DNA from: a virus | Length of the DNA stretch: 28,156 bases | IMG/VR virus record: IMGVR_UViG_3300027911_000055 | Location: 1-28,156 of that record | Strand: one strand, 5' to 3' | Part shown: positions 1,277 to 9,307 of the stretch, piece after piece | Numbering within the stretch: position 1 is the stretch's first letter | Layout: every line of letters begins with the position of its first letter | Translations under genes and position numbers: made by a program | Notes under the pieces: model-generated | The model's input: only the letters and a program-made list of their open reading frames with translations | Database searches by the model: none | What the model was told of the DNA's origin: nothing

Positions 1277-2176
1277 ATGTCCGGCTCGAGCGATTATTTC
1301 CAACAGAACACGCTGAACTATCTGGCCGGCTCGCTCGCCATGCCGGCGCTGCCGTCGGTGTGGATGGCGCTGTTCACCGCCGCGCCTACCAGCGACGCGG
1401 GCACGGGCGGAACCGAAGTGCCGTCCACGAACGCCTATGCGCGTCAGCAGGTTGCCGGGCCGCTAACAACGAATGGCACGACGGCCAGCGGCAACGCCAC
1501 GTTGCACTTCGCATCGGTTCCGGCATGGATCGTTGCCGGGATGCTGATACGCGATTCGACGGCGCCGTCTGTCATTCCGGCAAATACAACGGTTCTTTCG
1601 ACGACCTCCACTACCGTCGTGATGAGCGCCAATGCGACCGGCGCCGGTGTCGGCGGCACCGATGTCATCACGTTTTCGATTTTCGCGGCGGCTTCGGCTT
1701 CGTCAGGCAATCCGGAGCCCAATACATTGCCGGGCTCAATTGTCAATTCGGCGGCGGTCGTCACGTTTGCACAGGCGACCGGAACCGGATGGGGTACGGT
1801 CGTTGCATACGGACTTTATGATGCCTCATCAGCGGGTAACTTGCTGAATTGGGACTATCTCGGCAATTTCAAATGGATTCCGTTCTCATGTTCCAACGCA
1901 TCGCCGGGTGTATTTACGACCGATAGCACAGGCGATGTTCCGGCGAATGGATCAAGCGTTGTCGTGACGCAGAAATACGGCGGCACGCTGCCGACCACGG
2001 CGGGTTCATTCTCGGGATTGCTGACAACCGCAGGCTCATCCACGAATACGTTCAACGTCGGTGTCAATACCACCTCGGTCGGCGGCGCCCAATTTCGCCA
2101 AGTCGCCTCCCAGCCGATTGCCGGCAACGTAACGCCATCGTTCGGCACCAATCAGTTCACGATCACCTTGGCTTAA
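1277..2176 (+). CDS. Tail-fibre-like virion protein
   Basis: 299 residues. Residues 25-60 (VWMALFTAAPT, then a GTGGTEV stretch and an ARQ motif) resemble the N-terminal motif of a family annotated in proteobacterial phages as tail fibre or virion structural proteins. The rest is rich in Thr, Ser, Ala, Gly and Val, with beta-strand-like alternation and no charged clusters. The ATG at 1277 follows the upstream stop (1270-1272) with an AAGG-type ribosome site inside the preceding gene. Its position directly behind the repeat fibre suggests a tail appendage. The exact role is uncertain. Confidence 0.65.
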   Translation: MSGSSDYFQQNTLNYLAGSLAMPALPSVWMALFTAAPTSDAGTGGTEVPSTNAYARQQVAGPLTTNGTTASGNATLHFASVPAWIVAGMLIRDSTAPSVIPANTTVLSTTSTTVVMSANATGAGVGGTDVITFSIFAAASASSGNPEPNTLPGSIVNSAAVVTFAQATGTGWGTVVAYGLYDASSAGNLLNWDYLGNFKWIPFSCSNASPGVFTTDSTGDVPANGSSVVVTQKYGGTLPTTAGSFSGLLTTAGSSTNTFNVGVNTTSVGGAQFRQVASQPIAGNVTPSFGTNQFTITLA

Positions 2177-2194
2177 TCGCAGGGAGAATCCCTT

Positions 2195-3244
2195 TTGACC
2201 ATCGTCGCCCAAATCCAGAACCTGCGTTCCTTCGTCACCACGCATCTCGGCGACGTGATCGACTGGAACAAGCACGTCAAGCCAGACCCGCATCTCGCCA
2301 CCACGGGCGATATCGCCTATGTGGAAATCGAAACGCCATTCAACCGCTACAAGCTGGCGATGGGCTCGGCCTATGCGGAGCCGCCGTCGGGCGCGCCGTC
2401 GGTGTGCCGCTCGCTCGGCTGGATCACGTTTCATCATGTCGGCGAGGACAAGTATCTGCTCTCGCCGAAAAACGATCTCGCCTACATGGATATTTCCAAG
2501 CACATCCATGTCCGCGAACTGACCGACGCGGCGGCGGCATGCCGGCGTGATCTGGCGGAATCGGCAACGCCGGAACTTGCCGCACAGGTGCGCATCCGCA
2601 TGAGCGAAGTCGCTGCCAGGGCGGCGAAGTGGGATATCAAGGTGCAGGTGCCGGAGGCGTCGAAGGTCAGTGAGATTGCGGCAGCGCCGCAGCATCATAA
2701 TGTGCCGGTCAAGACGCTAGATGAGAGCCTTCCGATAGCTCATCCAAGTGTAGCGAATGCGTTCTTTTTGCCGGGCGGCCAAGGCCATCCCGGTCCCGCT
2801 CCCTTCGTCGGCGCCCAGATCATCTTTTATGCCCACGACCGCATTGCCGGAATGGATCAGGTCCCCGGCGTATTGGTGAAGATTCAGAAGGACGGCCGCG
2901 CCGCCATGTTCCTGATGGCCGATCTCAACGAGATCACCTTCATGGATAACGTCCATCGCCGCGGCTCCGATGCCGGCAACGGACGGGTGCATACGACGAA
3001 CTGTTGGGATTTCAATCCGGAGTGGCTGAAGGAGCAGGCGCGGATTTGCCATCTCGAAAAGGAAATCAAAAGGATAGAAGACGAACGCGGTCTTGAGCGC
3101 GCTCTGATCGCGGAAGTGTTTGACGATCTTCTGTTGCGTCTGGCGGCTCTCGAAGCCAAGCCCAAGCGCGGACGGCCGCCGAAGCCGGAAGGCGGCGAGA
3201 CAGAGGGCGCGGAAGCGGCGAGTGAATTGGAGCCGGCAACATGA
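2195..3244 (+). CDS. Unrecognised phage protein with C-terminal AT-hook-like motif
   Basis: 349 residues. The start is TTG at 2195, chosen because GGGAG lies 8 bases upstream and the frame begins cleanly 18 bases after the previous stop. The N-terminal two thirds is mixed alpha/beta (VEIETPFNRYKLAMG, LGWITFHHVG, and AMFLMADLNEITFMD later). Residues 280-320 form a charged helical segment. The C-terminus has KPKRGRPPKP, matching the G-R-P core of an AT-hook, a minor-groove DNA-binding element, followed by an acidic tail. It overlaps the next gene by 4 bases. Position just before the portal would suit a packaging role, but there is no Walker A or nuclease motif, so I do not call it a terminase. 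Confidence 0.6.
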   Translation: MTIVAQIQNLRSFVTTHLGDVIDWNKHVKPDPHLATTGDIAYVEIETPFNRYKLAMGSAYAEPPSGAPSVCRSLGWITFHHVGEDKYLLSPKNDLAYMDISKHIHVRELTDAAAACRRDLAESATPELAAQVRIRMSEVAARAAKWDIKVQVPEASKVSEIAAAPQHHNVPVKTLDESLPIAHPSVANAFFLPGGQGHPGPAPFVGAQIIFYAHDRIAGMDQVPGVLVKIQKDGRAAMFLMADLNEITFMDNVHRRGSDAGNGRVHTTNCWDFNPEWLKEQARICHLEKEIKRIEDERGLERALIAEVFDDLLLRLAALEAKPKRGRPPKPEGGETEGAEAASELEPAT

Positions 3245-3636
3245 TGCGCCCGAATCTAGGAGAGAAGCCGAAATTAATGATCGTCTCGGAATTAAGGGAT
3301 CATAAGCGCCGCCGTCCTTTATGTATGTTGTTGCTTCATGCCGACGGTCGGGAACACATTATACAATTTTCGTTTGAGGATTGTACGAATACCATAACTG
3401 AAGGGCAAGAAACAATTCGGGGAAATAATCCGCAGATCCCGATGACAGATGAAGCCCATCAATATGGGCTCGATGGAACAGAATTTCTGCAAACCGTTCT
3501 CGATTATGCCTGGCAAGAGGGATTCCGGCCTCAAGGGTTTTTCGATACGCCTAATGAACTCATGCGCCTGAAAGCGCATCTCAACGATATGCGCGCTCTT
3601 GTATTCAAGGAGCGCGGAATTGATCTGCCTCCATGA
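3241..3636 (+). CDS. Hypothetical protein, AT-richer than neighbours
   Basis: 131 residues. Start and stop overlap the neighbouring genes by 4 bases on each side (ATGA junctions), which implies translational coupling through to the portal gene. ATG 3241 is preceded by GGAG at 8 bases. It is soluble-looking with no membrane segment: a basic patch near residues 20-26, then LCMLLLHADGREHIIQFSF, and a helical C-terminus ending in MRALVFKERGIDLPP. Base composition is visibly richer in A/T than the adjoining genes, suggesting separate acquisition. Function not recognised. Confidence 0.65.
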   Translation: MMRPNLGEKPKLMIVSELRDHKRRRPLCMLLLHADGREHIIQFSFEDCTNTITEGQETIRGNNPQIPMTDEAHQYGLDGTEFLQTVLDYAWQEGFRPQGFFDTPNELMRLKAHLNDMRALVFKERGIDLPP

Positions 3637-5903
3637 ATAACGAACAGACCTCCACCCGTCCCGCCGTCGAAGGCCCCCAGGCGACCGGCTCCGGCACTGC
3701 CGGGCCCGACGCCATGCGGCCGTCGCAGCTTGAGAACAGCGAGGCGCTGCGCATCTTCAAGGCGTGGTTCCGCGGTGACAAGCAGCATTCGGCCGACTGG
3801 CGCGTGCAGGCGAAGATCGATTTCGATTTCGTCGCTGGCGATCAGTGGACGGAAAAGGATCAGGCGCTGCTCAAGGATCAGAACCGCACGCCGATCACCT
3901 TCAACCGCTCGCTGACCATCATCAAGGCGGTCGCCGGCATGGAGATCAATGGCCGCCACGAGATCGCCTATCTGCCGCGCAAGCTTGAAGACTCCGCGAT
4001 CGACGAAACTTTGACCGGCGCCTGCAAGTGGATGGCGGACGAATGCGACGGGGAGGATGAGGAATCCGAACAGTTCCAGCATGCGCTGATCTGCGGCATG
4101 GGTTTCGCCGAGCACCGCATGGATTACGAGGAGGAAGCCGAAGGCAAGTACATCGAGGAAAGCCTCGATCCCCTCGAAATGTATTGGGACCGCACCGCCA
4201 AGAAAAAGAACCTTGTCGATGCCCGCCGCATCTGGCGCGTGCGCGTCATGCCGCTCGGCGATGCGCAACAGCTTTTTCCCGGCTTTTCCGCGGCTCAGCT
4301 TGATGCCAAGTGGGCGCTCGGCGGCGAACCGACGACGCCGCAGAAGACGCTTGAAGAACGTCGCGTCCGCGACGAAAATTCATCGGGACCTCTGTCCGAT
4401 CAGGAAGAGGTGACGATGGTTCACGTTGAATGGTGGGAGCGCGAGGATTGCTGGTGCGTCGCCGATCCGGCGAACAATACCCTGCACAAAATCGATGATC
4501 CGACCTATAAGCGCCTGAAGCAGCGCCATGCCGAAGTCCAGGCCATCATGGCGCAGGCCAATCCCGCCTATCAGCCGCAGGAACTGCACGCCGTCAAGGT
4601 CAAGCGCAAGGTCTTCAAGCAGGCGTTCATCGGCGCCGAGATCGTGGAGATGGGAGACGCGCGTATCCCCGACCGCTATTCCTATTCCTGCGTCACTGGC
4701 GAATTCCACCATAACCGCCGCACCTGGTTCGGCCTCATCCGCACGCTGCGCGATCCGCAGATGTGGGGCAACAAATGGCTGTCGCAGATTCTGCATATCC
4801 TCAACAGCACGGCCAAGGGCGGCATCGTCGCCGAAATGGACGCATTCGAGGATCAGCGCGACGCCGAACAGAAATGGGCGCGGCCCGACGGCATCGTATG
4901 GGCGAAGAAACTCACCAATCCCCAAGGTCACCCGAAATTCCTTCCCAAGCCCGGCACCGGCGATCCCAGCGGCTATATCCAGCTTCTCGAGCTCGCCATC
5001 AACGGCGGACGTGAAGTCACCGGCATCAATCTGGAATTGCTCGGGCAGAAGGATTTGAACCAGCCCGGCATCCTGGAGGCAATGCGCAAGCAGGCCGGGA
5101 TGACGGTGCTTGCCACCATGTTCGATGCGCTGCGCCGCATGCGCAAGATCATCGGCCGCATCCGGCTCTACTATATCCAGAACTTCCTGAGCGACGGCCG
5201 CATCATCCGCATCACCGGCCAGCAAGGCGCCAAGTCGATCCGCCTGCTGCGCGAAAAGACGCTCGGCGAATACGATGTGATCGTGGACGATACCCCCACC
5301 TCGCCCAATCAGAAGCAGGCGACCTGGGGGATCATTTCGCAATTGCTGCCGGCCTTCAAGGATCAGTTGATGGCGCGGCCGGACATCTTCATCAAGCTGC
5401 TGGAATACTCGCCGCTGCCGACGCAGATCGTCGCGGCGGTCGAAAACATGATCCAGAATCCGCCCGGCAAGACGCCGGAGCAACAGAAGATGGAGCAGCT
5501 CCAGGTCGCCGCCGCCGTTGCCAAGATCAGCAAGGATCAGGCGCAAGCCGAACTCTACCAGAAGCAGGCGGCTTCGACGGAAGCGACCTCGATGTACGAT
5601 CTCGCCATGGCGCAGAACCTTCTGCTCAAGCATCAGGGCGACATGGCCGCGGCCTTCAACGAAGCCCGCAAGTCCGGGATGGAAGCCGCCAAGATGCAGG
5701 CCGATACCGAACACGTCGCCGCCAAGACCGGCACCGAACAGGCGAAAGCGGACAATATCCGCGCCCAGACCGTCGGCGAGCATGCCGGCGCGGCGAGTAC
5801 ACATGTCGGAACGCTGATCGATGCGCTGACGCCGATCGGGCATCATGAAGACTTGTTCCCGCCGCCGCTGCCGGCAGCAAGACAGCCGGCGGCGGCGCAA
5901 TAG
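3633..5903 (+). CDS. Portal protein, P22 gp1-like
   Basis: 756 residues, close to the usual size of P22-type portals (about 725). The portal forms the twelve-subunit ring at one capsid vertex through which DNA is packaged and ejected. Family features: an N-terminal segment reading DFVAGDQWTEKDQALLKDQNR (residues about 65-90), followed by ITFNRSLTIIKAVAGMEINGR and later YWDRTAKKKNLVDARRIW. These match the start of P22-family portals. The stem/wing region is followed by a long Gln/Ala-rich coiled-coil C-terminus (about 610-720), as in the P22 barrel. The ATG overlaps the upstream stop (ATGA). The scaffold and capsid genes lie downstream, the standard head-gene order. Confidence 0.9.
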   Translation: MNNEQTSTRPAVEGPQATGSGTAGPDAMRPSQLENSEALRIFKAWFRGDKQHSADWRVQAKIDFDFVAGDQWTEKDQALLKDQNRTPITFNRSLTIIKAVAGMEINGRHEIAYLPRKLEDSAIDETLTGACKWMADECDGEDEESEQFQHALICGMGFAEHRMDYEEEAEGKYIEESLDPLEMYWDRTAKKKNLVDARRIWRVRVMPLGDAQQLFPGFSAAQLDAKWALGGEPTTPQKTLEERRVRDENSSGPLSDQEEVTMVHVEWWEREDCWCVADPANNTLHKIDDPTYKRLKQRHAEVQAIMAQANPAYQPQELHAVKVKRKVFKQAFIGAEIVEMGDARIPDRYSYSCVTGEFHHNRRTWFGLIRTLRDPQMWGNKWLSQILHILNSTAKGGIVAEMDAFEDQRDAEQKWARPDGIVWAKKLTNPQGHPKFLPKPGTGDPSGYIQLLELAINGGREVTGINLELLGQKDLNQPGILEAMRKQAGMTVLATMFDALRRMRKIIGRIRLYYIQNFLSDGRIIRITGQQGAKSIRLLREKTLGEYDVIVDDTPTSPNQKQATWGIISQLLPAFKDQLMARPDIFIKLLEYSPLPTQIVAAVENMIQNPPGKTPEQQKMEQLQVAAAVAKISKDQAQAELYQKQAASTEATSMYDLAMAQNLLLKHQGDMAAAFNEARKSGMEAAKMQADTEHVAAKTGTEQAKADNIRAQTVGEHAGAASTHVGTLIDALTPIGHHEDLFPPPLPAARQPAAAQ

Positions 5904-6157
5904 AATTCTCGCGGCGGCATGGAAAGCAGACATGCAAACAAGCTCCCTCTAGATTCAACGGGGGACGCCTGAATGGCAACGCGAAAGCCTTTAGCCGGAG
6001 CAGCGCCCGGCCCGCGAGAATACCAATCCTGATCGCCAAACCAATGGGCCAGCCTGGATCGCGATCCTGAAGGCAGCAAGGCTCAAGACAAATAACCGTA
6101 TGCGATCGAACGCCTCGGGGCGTAACCCCGAACCGTGCAATCCAGCAAGAGGAATCC
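5904..6157 (+). promoter_or_regulatory. Structured portal-scaffold intergenic leader
   Basis: A 254-base gap between portal and scaffold in an otherwise tightly packed module. It contains a perfect 10-bp inverted repeat, ATTCTCGCGG at 5905-5914 and CCGCGAGAAT at 6012-6021, enclosing about 97 bases. A 6-bp hairpin lies at 6115-6131 (TCGGGG / CCCCGA with a CGTAA loop). A good ribosome site (AGAGGA) precedes the scaffold ATG. It also holds a possible broken micro-gene (5973-6095). It matches no riboswitch I know; an RNA regulatory role is inferred. Confidence 0.4.
5973..6095 (+). pseudogene. Possible 40-codon micro-gene with in-frame TGA
   Basis: ATG 5973 is preceded by GGGGGA about 8 bases upstream. 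It opens 19 codons (MATRKPLAGAAPGPREYQS), then has TGA at 6030-6032. The same frame continues for 20 protein-like codons (SPNQWASLDRDPEGSKAQDK) to TAA at 6093-6095. The upstream mini-ORF from 5919 (17 codons) ends at 5970-5972, directly against this ATG. It could be a nonsense-inactivated small gene, a short functional 19-residue peptide, or chance. Other genes in the window use TGA as an ordinary stop, so recoding is unlikely. Confidence 0.3.
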
Positions 6158-7345
6158 ATGCCTCCGGAGAATTCGAAACGCACCGCCCTGATTGCCGAGG
6201 GACTGACCGAGGCGGAAGCCGATTTCATGATCAGCGGCGGCACCAAGACTGACGGCTTGAATCTGTCGAGCGACGGCACGCCTTCGGAAAAAGTCATTGT
6301 CGAGCCGGTCCGCGATATCGACGACAAGGCGCCGCCGGCCGATGCCAAGGGCCAGCAGCAACCGCATGCCGACGACGATGCCGACAGCCCGCCGCCGCCG
6401 AAGGATTCGCCGTTCTATTCGCGATGGCAGCGCGATAGGCAACGCCGTCAGGAACTCCAGACGGCGCTGAAGGAGCGTGACGACAAACTTGCGGCCACCT
6501 CCGTCGAGATGGCCGCCGAGCGCGAGAAATGGGCGCGCCTCGACGAGCGGCTGCGGGTATTCCGCGAAGCCTCGGAAGCGCCCGACCCGGCCGCCCTTGC
6601 CGCCGCTCAACCAAAGCCGAAGCCCGATCGCGAAGCCGATCCGTTCGGCTACATGGCGTGGCTGGAGGAACGGCTTGAGAAGGTCTCATCCGATGTCGAG
6701 CAGACCACGACACGGACGCAGGAACGCGATGCGGCGGTGGAACTCACCTCGACTTTCCGCAACGATGCCGCGCAATATTCCCGGAACAATCCGGACTTCT
6801 GGGAAACCGCGCCGAATGCCCACGATGGCGCCTATCACTACCTGATGAAGAGCCGCGATCAGGAATTGCTCTATGCCGGTTATATCGACCCGCAGGAACG
6901 GATGCGGATCATCGCCACGGATGAGCGCGATATCGTCGCCCGCGCCTTCCAGAACAAGCAGCGCAATCCCGGCGCGCCGGGACCGTCGGAAGTGCTGTTC
7001 AACCTCGCGGTGTCGCGCGGCTATCAGAAGCGGGCGCCAGCCGCGGCACCGCCGCTCCAGAATGGAGCAGCGCCGCCCGCTGCCAACGGCGCCGCCAACG
7101 GTCAGGCGCGTCCTGGAGCCGCTACAGCGCCGCCCCCAGCCGCCACGACCGTCACCGATCAGATTCGGTCGATCCAGCAGGGCCAGGCCGCCAGCCGCTC
7201 GCTATCCTCTGCCGGCGGTGCCCCGCCGCCTACGGGCATCGATCTTGCCGCCATCGCCGAAATGAGCGACAACGAATACGCCGGTTGGGTACGCGGGCTG
7301 ACGGCGGCGCAAAAGCGCGAGTATCAAAAGCTCATCGGAGCATGA
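6158..7345 (+). CDS. Scaffold-like head assembly protein
   Basis: 395 residues, very hydrophilic. An acidic, Pro-rich N-terminus (DADSPPPPKDS near residue 75-85) leads into a long charged coiled-coil (about 85-210: RWQRDRQRRQELQTALKERD and onward). A central folded segment (about 210-290) contains YSRNNPDFWETAPNAHDGAY. Residues 295-350 are an Ala/Pro/Gly linker. The last 30 residues are helical (NEYAGWVRGLTAAQKREYQK). A disordered N-terminus, coiled coil and small helical C-terminal end, placed between portal and capsid, is the usual pattern of internal scaffolding proteins that guide procapsid assembly. ATG 6158 has AGAGGA at a suitable distance. The call rests on position and architecture. 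Confidence 0.7.
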   Translation: MPPENSKRTALIAEGLTEAEADFMISGGTKTDGLNLSSDGTPSEKVIVEPVRDIDDKAPPADAKGQQQPHADDDADSPPPPKDSPFYSRWQRDRQRRQELQTALKERDDKLAATSVEMAAEREKWARLDERLRVFREASEAPDPAALAAAQPKPKPDREADPFGYMAWLEERLEKVSSDVEQTTTRTQERDAAVELTSTFRNDAAQYSRNNPDFWETAPNAHDGAYHYLMKSRDQELLYAGYIDPQERMRIIATDERDIVARAFQNKQRNPGAPGPSEVLFNLAVSRGYQKRAPAAAPPLQNGAAPPAANGAANGQARPGAATAPPPAATTVTDQIRSIQQGQAASRSLSSAGGAPPPTGIDLAAIAEMSDNEYAGWVRGLTAAQKREYQKLIGA

Positions 7346-7557
7346 TTCAATACGCTTTGCGGTGTGCGCAACACTGCTCCGCTTGGCTGACGTAATCAGC
7401 CGCGCCTTGCGTGTGTGCGCGCTTAACGCCGCTCCGCCCGGTCGGGCTGTCATCGATCATGCTTTGCGGTGTGCTGGAAACACCGCTTCGTGCTGTGCGG
7501 CACGCTCAAAGCGCATTTCACAAAGGAAACAAGACCTCTGACGAGGATTGAAGTTCA
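7346..7557 (+). promoter_or_regulatory. Hairpin-array leader of the capsid gene
   Basis: 212 bases without a gene, holding successive stem-loops: 7359-7377 (GCGGTGT/ACACTGC, one G-U), 7385-7401 (GGCTGA/TCAGCC), 7436-7447 (GCCCG/CGGGC), 7466-7486 (GCGGTGT/ACACCGC) and 7489-7504 (CGTGC/GCACG). A 14-base direct repeat, GCTTTGCGGTGTGC, occurs at 7354-7367 and 7461-7474, so the first and fourth hairpins are duplicates. GAGG sits 11 bases before the capsid ATG. A structured 5' leader could stabilise the capsid mRNA or serve as an RNA processing site; that role is inferred. Confidence 0.5.
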
Positions 7558-9307
7558 ATGGCAATTACCTCATTTGCCTTGAATGACGCCTATGCGGTCA
7601 AGCTGTGGTCGAAAGAGCTTTCGGTCGAAGCGATGAAGTACACCGAAATCTCTCCGCTCATCGGCACGGCGGCGGGCAGCGTCATCTACAAGAAGGAGGA
7701 AACCGAAAAGGGCAAGGGCGATCAGGTCACGTTCGGCCTCTCGCTCCAGATGGCCCAGGACGGTTTTACCGAGAACGAAATCGCGGAAGGCAATGGTGAA
7801 TCGCTCACGATCTATACCGATCAATTGACCATCAATGAATTGATGGCCGTTGGTGGCGTGAAGTCGGATCGCACCATCGACCAGCAGCGCATTCCGTTCG
7901 ATCTCCGCGCCACCGTGCGCGATCGGTTGGCGGAATGGTATGGAAAGCGGATTTCCGTTAACTGAAACTGGCGGAAATAAAACCGGGTGAATTCGGTGGA
8001 CCTCTCATTCGATCAATTCATGGAAAAACGCAAACGAGTCCTGACGCATCAAGTCGCTGGGCTTCGTGGGCTACGCCGTCGAATTGAATATGAGAAATCT
8101 TGCAAGGAAGATGAGCTTGTCGGTGTAAGACTGGCGATTGCAATGGTTTCCAGTGAGACAATACCGAGCCAAGCCGCGCAAGCGGAAGGTGTATCGACTA
8201 TTCCGAAAGGAAGTAGGGGCCAAGCGGCTCCGAAGCGCCCGGCCTCGCGCAAGCGAGTGATGAGATAGTCACCTCTGCGCAGTGATGCGTAGCAGCCGAA
8301 AGGCGGTGCCCGCTTAGCGAACGGGCGCGAAGATCAAGGCAGCTTCTTCAACCAGGTCTGCGGCAACGTCGCAGAAACTCGCACCAAATACACTGGCCTC
8401 CAGGCCGTCACGGCGCCTTCGTCAGGCCGTCAAATCTGGCAAGGCTCCGTCACCGGCGATGAGAACATCACGTCATCCAACACGATGACGTTGGGCCTCA
8501 TCGACAAGATGAAGGAAATGGCGATCACCGCCACTCCGCTCGTCCGCCCGATCAGCGTCAAGCAGCATGGCGGCGAGATCGGCGACTACTATGAGAGCGT
8601 GCAGCAGGGCAAATATATCTGCTACCTCCATCCGTTCCAAGTGACGGATTTGCGCACGAATACGTCGACTGGACAGTGGCTCGATATCCAAAAAGCCGTT
8701 GTCACCGGCGACGGCGCCAAGGGTTCCTCCCTCTATGTGGGTGCTTAAAACTGAGGGCACTCTAGATCGGTAACGATCTACAAAAATAACCCTGTGAAAA
8801 CGGTGAACCTCTTGAAAGAGACAATACCGTGCCAAGCCGCCGCGAGGCGGAAGGTGTAACGACTAGGCAAAAGCCGTAGGGCTAAGCGGCCCGAAGCGCA
8901 GGGCTCCTAAGCAATTTAGGATGAAGATATAGTCTCCTCTGAACGGCGACGTTCAGCAGCCCGCAAGGGCGGTTCCGGCCTAGCGATCCGGAGCGAAGAA
9001 CAGACTCGGCGAATACAACAGCGTCATCCTCAAGTCGGCTTTCGACGTAACGACGGGGTGCAATTCCTCGACGGGTGCGGCGATCACGACGGTGAGGCGT
9101 AGTGTCCTGCTTGGTGCCGAAGCCGCGGTGATCGGCTACGGGATGAAGCATGCAGGCGGCAAATATCTATGGAACGAAGAATTATTCGACCATAAACGCC
9201 GCCTCGAAGTCTCCGCCCTGTCGATCTGGGGAATCAAGAAGTCTCGATTCAACAGCGTCGATTATGGCGTGATCGTCGGCTCCACTTATGCCGTCGCGCA
9301 TACCTAA
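7558..9307 (+). CDS. Major capsid protein, N4 gp56-like, three exons split by two group I introns
   Basis: The exons are 7558-7958, 8340-8745 and 9005-9307; joined they give 1110 bases, a 369-residue protein. Without splicing, exon 1 reads into a stop at 7963-7965, exon 2 into a stop at 8746-8748, and exon 3 has no proper start. Exon 1 (residues 1-133) includes KYTEISPLIG and GDQVTFGLSLQM. Exon 2 (135-269) includes SFFNQVCGN and ISVKQHGGEIGDYYESV. Exon 3 (270-369) starts LGEYNSVIL and ends in AIWGIKK-type and RFNSVDYGVIV sequence. These are hallmarks of the N4 gp56 family of HK97-fold capsid proteins. Junction codons are GT|C (Val134) and Ala269|Leu270. It follows the scaffold gene as expected. 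Splicing is predicted, not observed. Confidence 0.88.
7959..8339 (+). ncRNA. Group IA self-splicing intron 1 in the capsid gene
   Basis: Conserved core helices visible: P3 7983-7987/8238-8242 (CCGGG/CCCGG); P4 7993-7997/8163-8167 (TCGGT/ACCGA); P5 8003-8007/8154-8158; P6 8174-8185 with a GCAA loop; P7 8196-8201/8265-8270 (GACTAT/ATAGTC); P8 8244-8257 with a GCAA loop. Two hairpins between P7 and P3 (about 8200-8230) are the P7.1/P7.2 trait of subgroup IA. P1 pairs exon bases 7951-7958 with 7971-7978, ending in a U-G pair at the splice site. P10 pairs 8340-8342 with 7968-7970. The last intron base is G. The P5 loop carries a 146-base insertion (8008-8153) and no P2 is seen. Boundaries are predicted from pairing. 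Confidence 0.9.
8746..9004 (+). ncRNA. Group IA self-splicing intron 2 in the capsid gene
   Basis: A compact intron without an ORF. P2 is 8763-8780 (TAGATCG/CGATCTA with a GTAA loop); P3 8790-8794/8899-8903 (CCCTG/CAGGG); P4 8800-8804/8826-8830 (ACGGT/ACCGT); P5 8809-8812/8817-8820; P6 8837-8850 with a GCGA loop; P7 8861-8865/8930-8934 (GACTA/TAGTC); P8 near 8906-8920. Small hairpins between P7 and P3 indicate subgroup IA. P1 pairs exon 8739-8745 with 8756-8762, ending in U-G. P10 pairs CTCGG at 9005-9009 with CTGAG at 8751-8755. With these sites the last intron base is A9004 rather than the usual G. A one-base shift (8745-9003) ends in G and gives the same protein. Confidence 0.88.

Follow-up and report, generated by a model that had tools for sequence, protein, structure and literature searches.

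In mycobacteriophage LittleE, removal of an intron from the transcript of capsid gene 13 was shown at the RNA level by RT-PCR and also via the protein sequence (PMC3706429), and a capsid intron of lactococcal phage Tuc2009 is cited in the text of that paper. For a crAss-like phage, a capsid gene in five fragments was reported, where group I intron domains are encoded in 3/4 of the intervening segments (PMC7886860). There are published precedents for more than one group I intron per capsid gene. New here are introns at about nine positions of the PF13252 capsid gene, one such gene with three introns, and the share of head proteins among the genes that host this intron lineage.

The capsid gene and its uninterrupted relatives

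The window, i.e., the whole analysed stretch of 28,156 nucleotides, is a virus record from one metagenomic assembly of 28 kb. Positions 7558-9307 (plus strand, as are all window features below) form a single major capsid gene of family PF13252 (Phage_capsid_3), with 369 codons in three exons. Exon 1 (7558-7958) holds codons 1-133 and two bases of Val134, exon 2 (8340-8745, or to 8744 for an alternative junction) extends to Ala269, and exon 3 (9005-9307) reads from Leu270 to the stop. Joined, they give 1110 nt, i.e., 369 amino acids plus stop, which agrees with the codon count of the preliminary description, and they contain no stops or frameshifts. Each of the three fragments alone matches a consecutive stretch of PF13252 (positions 2-125, 129-260 and 262-375 of 376), and the spliced protein gives a full-length match in the profile search (2-375 of 376, E 6e-81). 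The gene is continuous across both interruptions, and this coverage bears out the earlier claim that three adjacent ORFs make up one N4 gp56-like capsid protein. With regard to an intact capsid gene elsewhere, which had been named as possible counter-evidence, a profile search of the 28,156-base record found no second PF13252 copy.

Both intron sites are empty in the best relatives, L003 (78% identical) and L066 (79%), whose capsid genes run uninterrupted through them. There, the sequence reads GTC AGC or GTA TCG at the first site of the window and GCT CTT or GCG CTC at the second. The record also encodes a P22-type portal (profile match), and the relatives located in bacterial genomes are mostly alphaproteobacterial. 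Given the portal and these relatives, assignment to a short-tailed, proteobacterial phage seems reasonable.

Beside the gene itself, two repeats were observed in the window. The leader upstream of the capsid gene (7354-7498) carries the 14-nt repeat GCTTTGCGGTGTGC in two exact copies and one at 79%, and a 180-nt unit occurs in two tandem copies at 636-989, inside a repetitive ORF (358-1272).

Intron cores and predicted splice junctions

Intron 1 spans 7959-8339 (381 nt) and intron 2 spans 8746-9004 (or 8745-9003; 259 nt, ±1 nt). In the Rfam search proposed by the preliminary description, intron 2 scores 65.6 bits against RF00028 and thus exceeds the curated cut-off of 50, but intron 1 stays below it with 47.7 bits (E 4.7e-11). 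The assignment of intron 1 also draws on junction enumeration and covariation, and that of intron 2 on its MFE fold, which recovers P2, P3, P4, P5, P6, P8 and P9. In the structure derived from 11 introns, the P7 strands GACTA and TAGTC pair in both introns, namely 8196-8200 with 8266-8270 in intron 1 and 8861-8865 with 8930-8934 in intron 2. The two introns are 74% identical over 189 nt in their 3' half, and their P7.1/P7.2 hairpins may place them in subgroup IA.

Loop L5 of intron 1 contains a 139-nt insert (8011-8149) with a G+C content of 47.9% vs. 60.6% for the window and a folding z of -2.1. Intron 1 furthermore contains a 93-codon ORF (7987-8268) without recognised homology, i.e., no matches in Pfam, PHROGs or phage genomes, and matches in IMG/VR limited to pieces that overlap the intron core. 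With these searches blank beyond the core, the ORF was not retained as a candidate homing endonuclease. Intron 2 is occupied by the ribozyme core, such that neither capsid intron has a recognisable homing endonuclease (Pfam and PHROGs; core only for intron 2), and a profile search for HNH (PF01844) found none in the whole record.

To assess covariation, we trimmed large loop inserts from 11 capsid-gene introns, aligned these and wrote down helices P3, P4, P6, P7, P7.1, P7.2, P8 and P9. The core is conserved and covaries: over all core helices, including the P7 pseudoknot, 91.3% of cells are paired, and 27 pairs changed on both sides. P3, P4 and P7 are paired in 98.7%, 98.2% and 98.2%, respectively, with double changes. 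The covariation score is 0.515 vs. 0.129 (sd 0.019) for shuffling and at most 0.131 for slid partners, where part of the excess is expected since the structure was read from the same sequences; the double changes that recur in P3, P4, P7.1, P7.2 and P9 go beyond that expectation. Covariation over the 11 related introns thus supports a shared core that would include intron 1.

Group I introns usually follow an exon-end U, which wobble-pairs with a G in P1, and their last base is usually G. We enumerated in-frame cuts and scored them on exon-end U, intron-end G as well as P1 and P10 pairs. For junction 1, there is a single best cut with U7958 before the intron, G8339 as its last base, and eight pairs in P1 and three in P10 (CAG/CUG); the GT|C junction claimed for Val134 is therefore fully canonical. 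For junction 2, two best cuts are tied. The cut U8745|C9005 has seven P1 and five P10 pairs with an intron-end A, and the cut C8744|A9004 has an intron-end G with an exon-end C. That is, GCT|CTC makes A9004 the last intron base and GC|A CTC makes it G9003. One rule must yield here, because U8745 and G9003 together shift the frame. Both cuts encode Ala-Leu and leave the protein unchanged, so the Ala269|Leu270 junction holds for the protein, but not for the exact cut: the GCT|CTC given before leaves a terminal A, and a one-base shift restores the G and loses the exon-end U. A similar ambiguity is seen for intron 1 of L203, and for 8/9 introns solved in relatives a junction with exon-end U and intron-end G lies at or near the best protein score. 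In the literature searched, we found no natural intron that deviates from the terminal G or the exon-end U.

Proposed splicing and alternative explanations

Very probably, the locus is a PF13252 (N4 gp56-type) major capsid gene with two group I introns that lack recognisable endonucleases. We infer that both introns are spliced, possibly without protein help. The capsid pre-mRNA would fold two ribozymes. In each, P1 would determine the exon base behind which a guanosine held by P7 attacks, and the exon released thereby would attack the 3' splice site aligned by P10. Both splicings together would yield a continuous 369-codon message.

Points that count against this explanation are that intron 1 lies under the Rfam cut-off, that junction 2 departs from one usual base and that the record is a single metagenomic assembly. 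The first two would suit a decaying capsid gene whose introns have lost splicing, the record then being a defective provirus or a dead lineage. However, the exons carry no stops or frameshifts at 78-79% identity to intact relatives, and both P7 helices as well as most core pairs are intact, which renders decay improbable. That only a single metagenomic record is at hand would also fit misassembled sequence inside an intact capsid gene. Yet chimeras do not give two insertions that are precise, in frame and equipped with a group I core each, and comparable insertions are found in the same gene in independent records, so that we consider an artefact hardly conceivable. Equally far-fetched is the splicing-free assembly of three separately made capsid pieces: every fragment is indeed an open frame, but the fragment boundaries coincide with the ribozyme ends and the relatives encode a single chain. 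A capsid gene split by two group I introns, as the preliminary description had read 7558-9307, is the only explanation in keeping with three adjacent Pfam fragments, relatives without interruption, the matches to Rfam and a covarying core.

Related introns, their host genes and known systems

Among 74 loci picked by similarity to exon 1, 2 are interrupted (about 3%), and the interrupted state is therefore uncommon. In addition to the window gene, about eight PF13252 genes proved to be interrupted, namely L158 and L151 (two introns), L203 (three), L389 (two), L004, L257, L123 with L333, and MW202512. The preliminary description's view that two such introns in one capsid gene are rare has to be tempered given these cases as well as LittleE, Tuc2009 and the crAss-like capsid. 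Half of the interrupted PF13252 genes have more than one intron. Put on window codon numbers by hand mapping, there are about nine intron sites (codons ~8, 31, 88|89, 132, 134, 227, 269|270, 326 and 329). The RF00028 matches in L158, L203, L257 and MW202512 all lie within the capsid gene. In L389, exactly the first window site is occupied by an intron of this kind, with an ORF bearing HNH-like motifs; the occupied site of L203 was rejected as this match, since it is six bases apart. We also rejected L149 as an interrupted capsid (unrelated flanking DNA; the contig may be chimeric) as well as L311 and L343 (intron motif away from the capsid gene).

In a small intron tree, both window introns cluster with intron 2 of L203 and intron 1 of L158 (support 0.944), and introns 1 and 3 of L203 cluster as well (0.924), groupings that suggest spread between positions. 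We infer that the window introns came from endonuclease-bearing relatives, through homing or recombination.

L203 holds its three group I introns within 1.8 kb (1758-3544), the maximum found here in PF13252. In intron 1 of L158 (about 5302-5633, minus strand), the L6 stretch LWSEALLVETIKYTDL resembles the capsid N-terminal LWSKELSVEALKYTEI and seems to be a piece of capsid sequence captured by an intron of the capsid gene. In the Manatee Spring phage (MW202512.1, 26027-27724), the public annotation shows, in place of the intron-interrupted capsid gene, a shortened capsid protein and small genes labelled hypothetical or 'icea'. Standard annotation would likewise report the capsid of the window phage as broken.

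To survey host genes, loci were found by intron-core motifs only, and 73 upstream exons were scanned with PHROGs and Pfam. In this motif-based sample, at least 22/73 hosts are major head proteins of four or more families; among the matches listed, these are nine phrog_1328, nine phrog_9953, three PF13252 and one (L160) of the head families, with up to seven RNA polymerase and five tape measure hosts next. Removal of close relatives from the sample was incomplete, short exons stay unassigned, and most of the nine phrog_1328 cases have a common site, so the head-gene excess is a lead and not a measured enrichment. In L160, two window-related group I introns (5074-5280 and 6121-6335, minus strand) flank a capsid gene that belongs to a different family (PF25209-like, with a score below cut-off). 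In L153 (6704-7413), a phrog_9953 major head protein exon lies between two intron cores that are separated by about 560-590 nt.

Because related introns sit in the shell genes of many phages at many positions, shell genes look like a favoured target. That the lineage has a preference for invading major capsid genes, in unrelated capsid families and at numerous sites in each gene, is a tentative reading that we rather doubt; beyond site-specific DNA homing, a possible route would be reverse splicing into the abundant late capsid mRNA. This reading departs from the preference for genes of nucleotide and DNA metabolism that has been reported for phage group I introns and that a recent survey calls mysterious (PMC12350094). 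The host-gene pattern is unexpected and worth proper counting, and with one essential gene invaded repeatedly, at about nine positions, the gene preference of phage introns becomes a testable question. The most abundant virion protein needs efficient splicing of its mRNA, which makes the capsid gene a demanding test of intron neutrality.

One close comparison is with the introns in the PF13252 genes of MW202512, L158, L203, L389, L004, L257 and L123, i.e., the same capsid family with cores closely related to those of the window. They lie mostly at other gene positions, and most have an HNH-like Cys-pair ORF in loop L6, whereas the window introns lack a recognised endonuclease. A Pfam scan of the intron ORFs of two relatives gave no HNH match; Cys pairs and a DHI/DHV motif are visible by eye, and the label HNH-like is used because of this inspection and the 'icea'/'hnhc' annotation in MW202512. 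LittleE also has an intron, probably of group I, in its major capsid gene, with U before it and G at its end (PMC3706429). It is the only one there, measures about 820 bp and includes an HNH gene, in contrast to two short introns without recognised endonuclease in the window, and LittleE differs in capsid sequence and in its actinobacterial host. The crAss-like case, from the Zeta group, resembles the window in that a single major capsid gene carries several group I introns, but there the capsid is in five fragments, the introns were recognised via intron-type protein domains, and the phages infect Bacteroidetes (PMC7886860).
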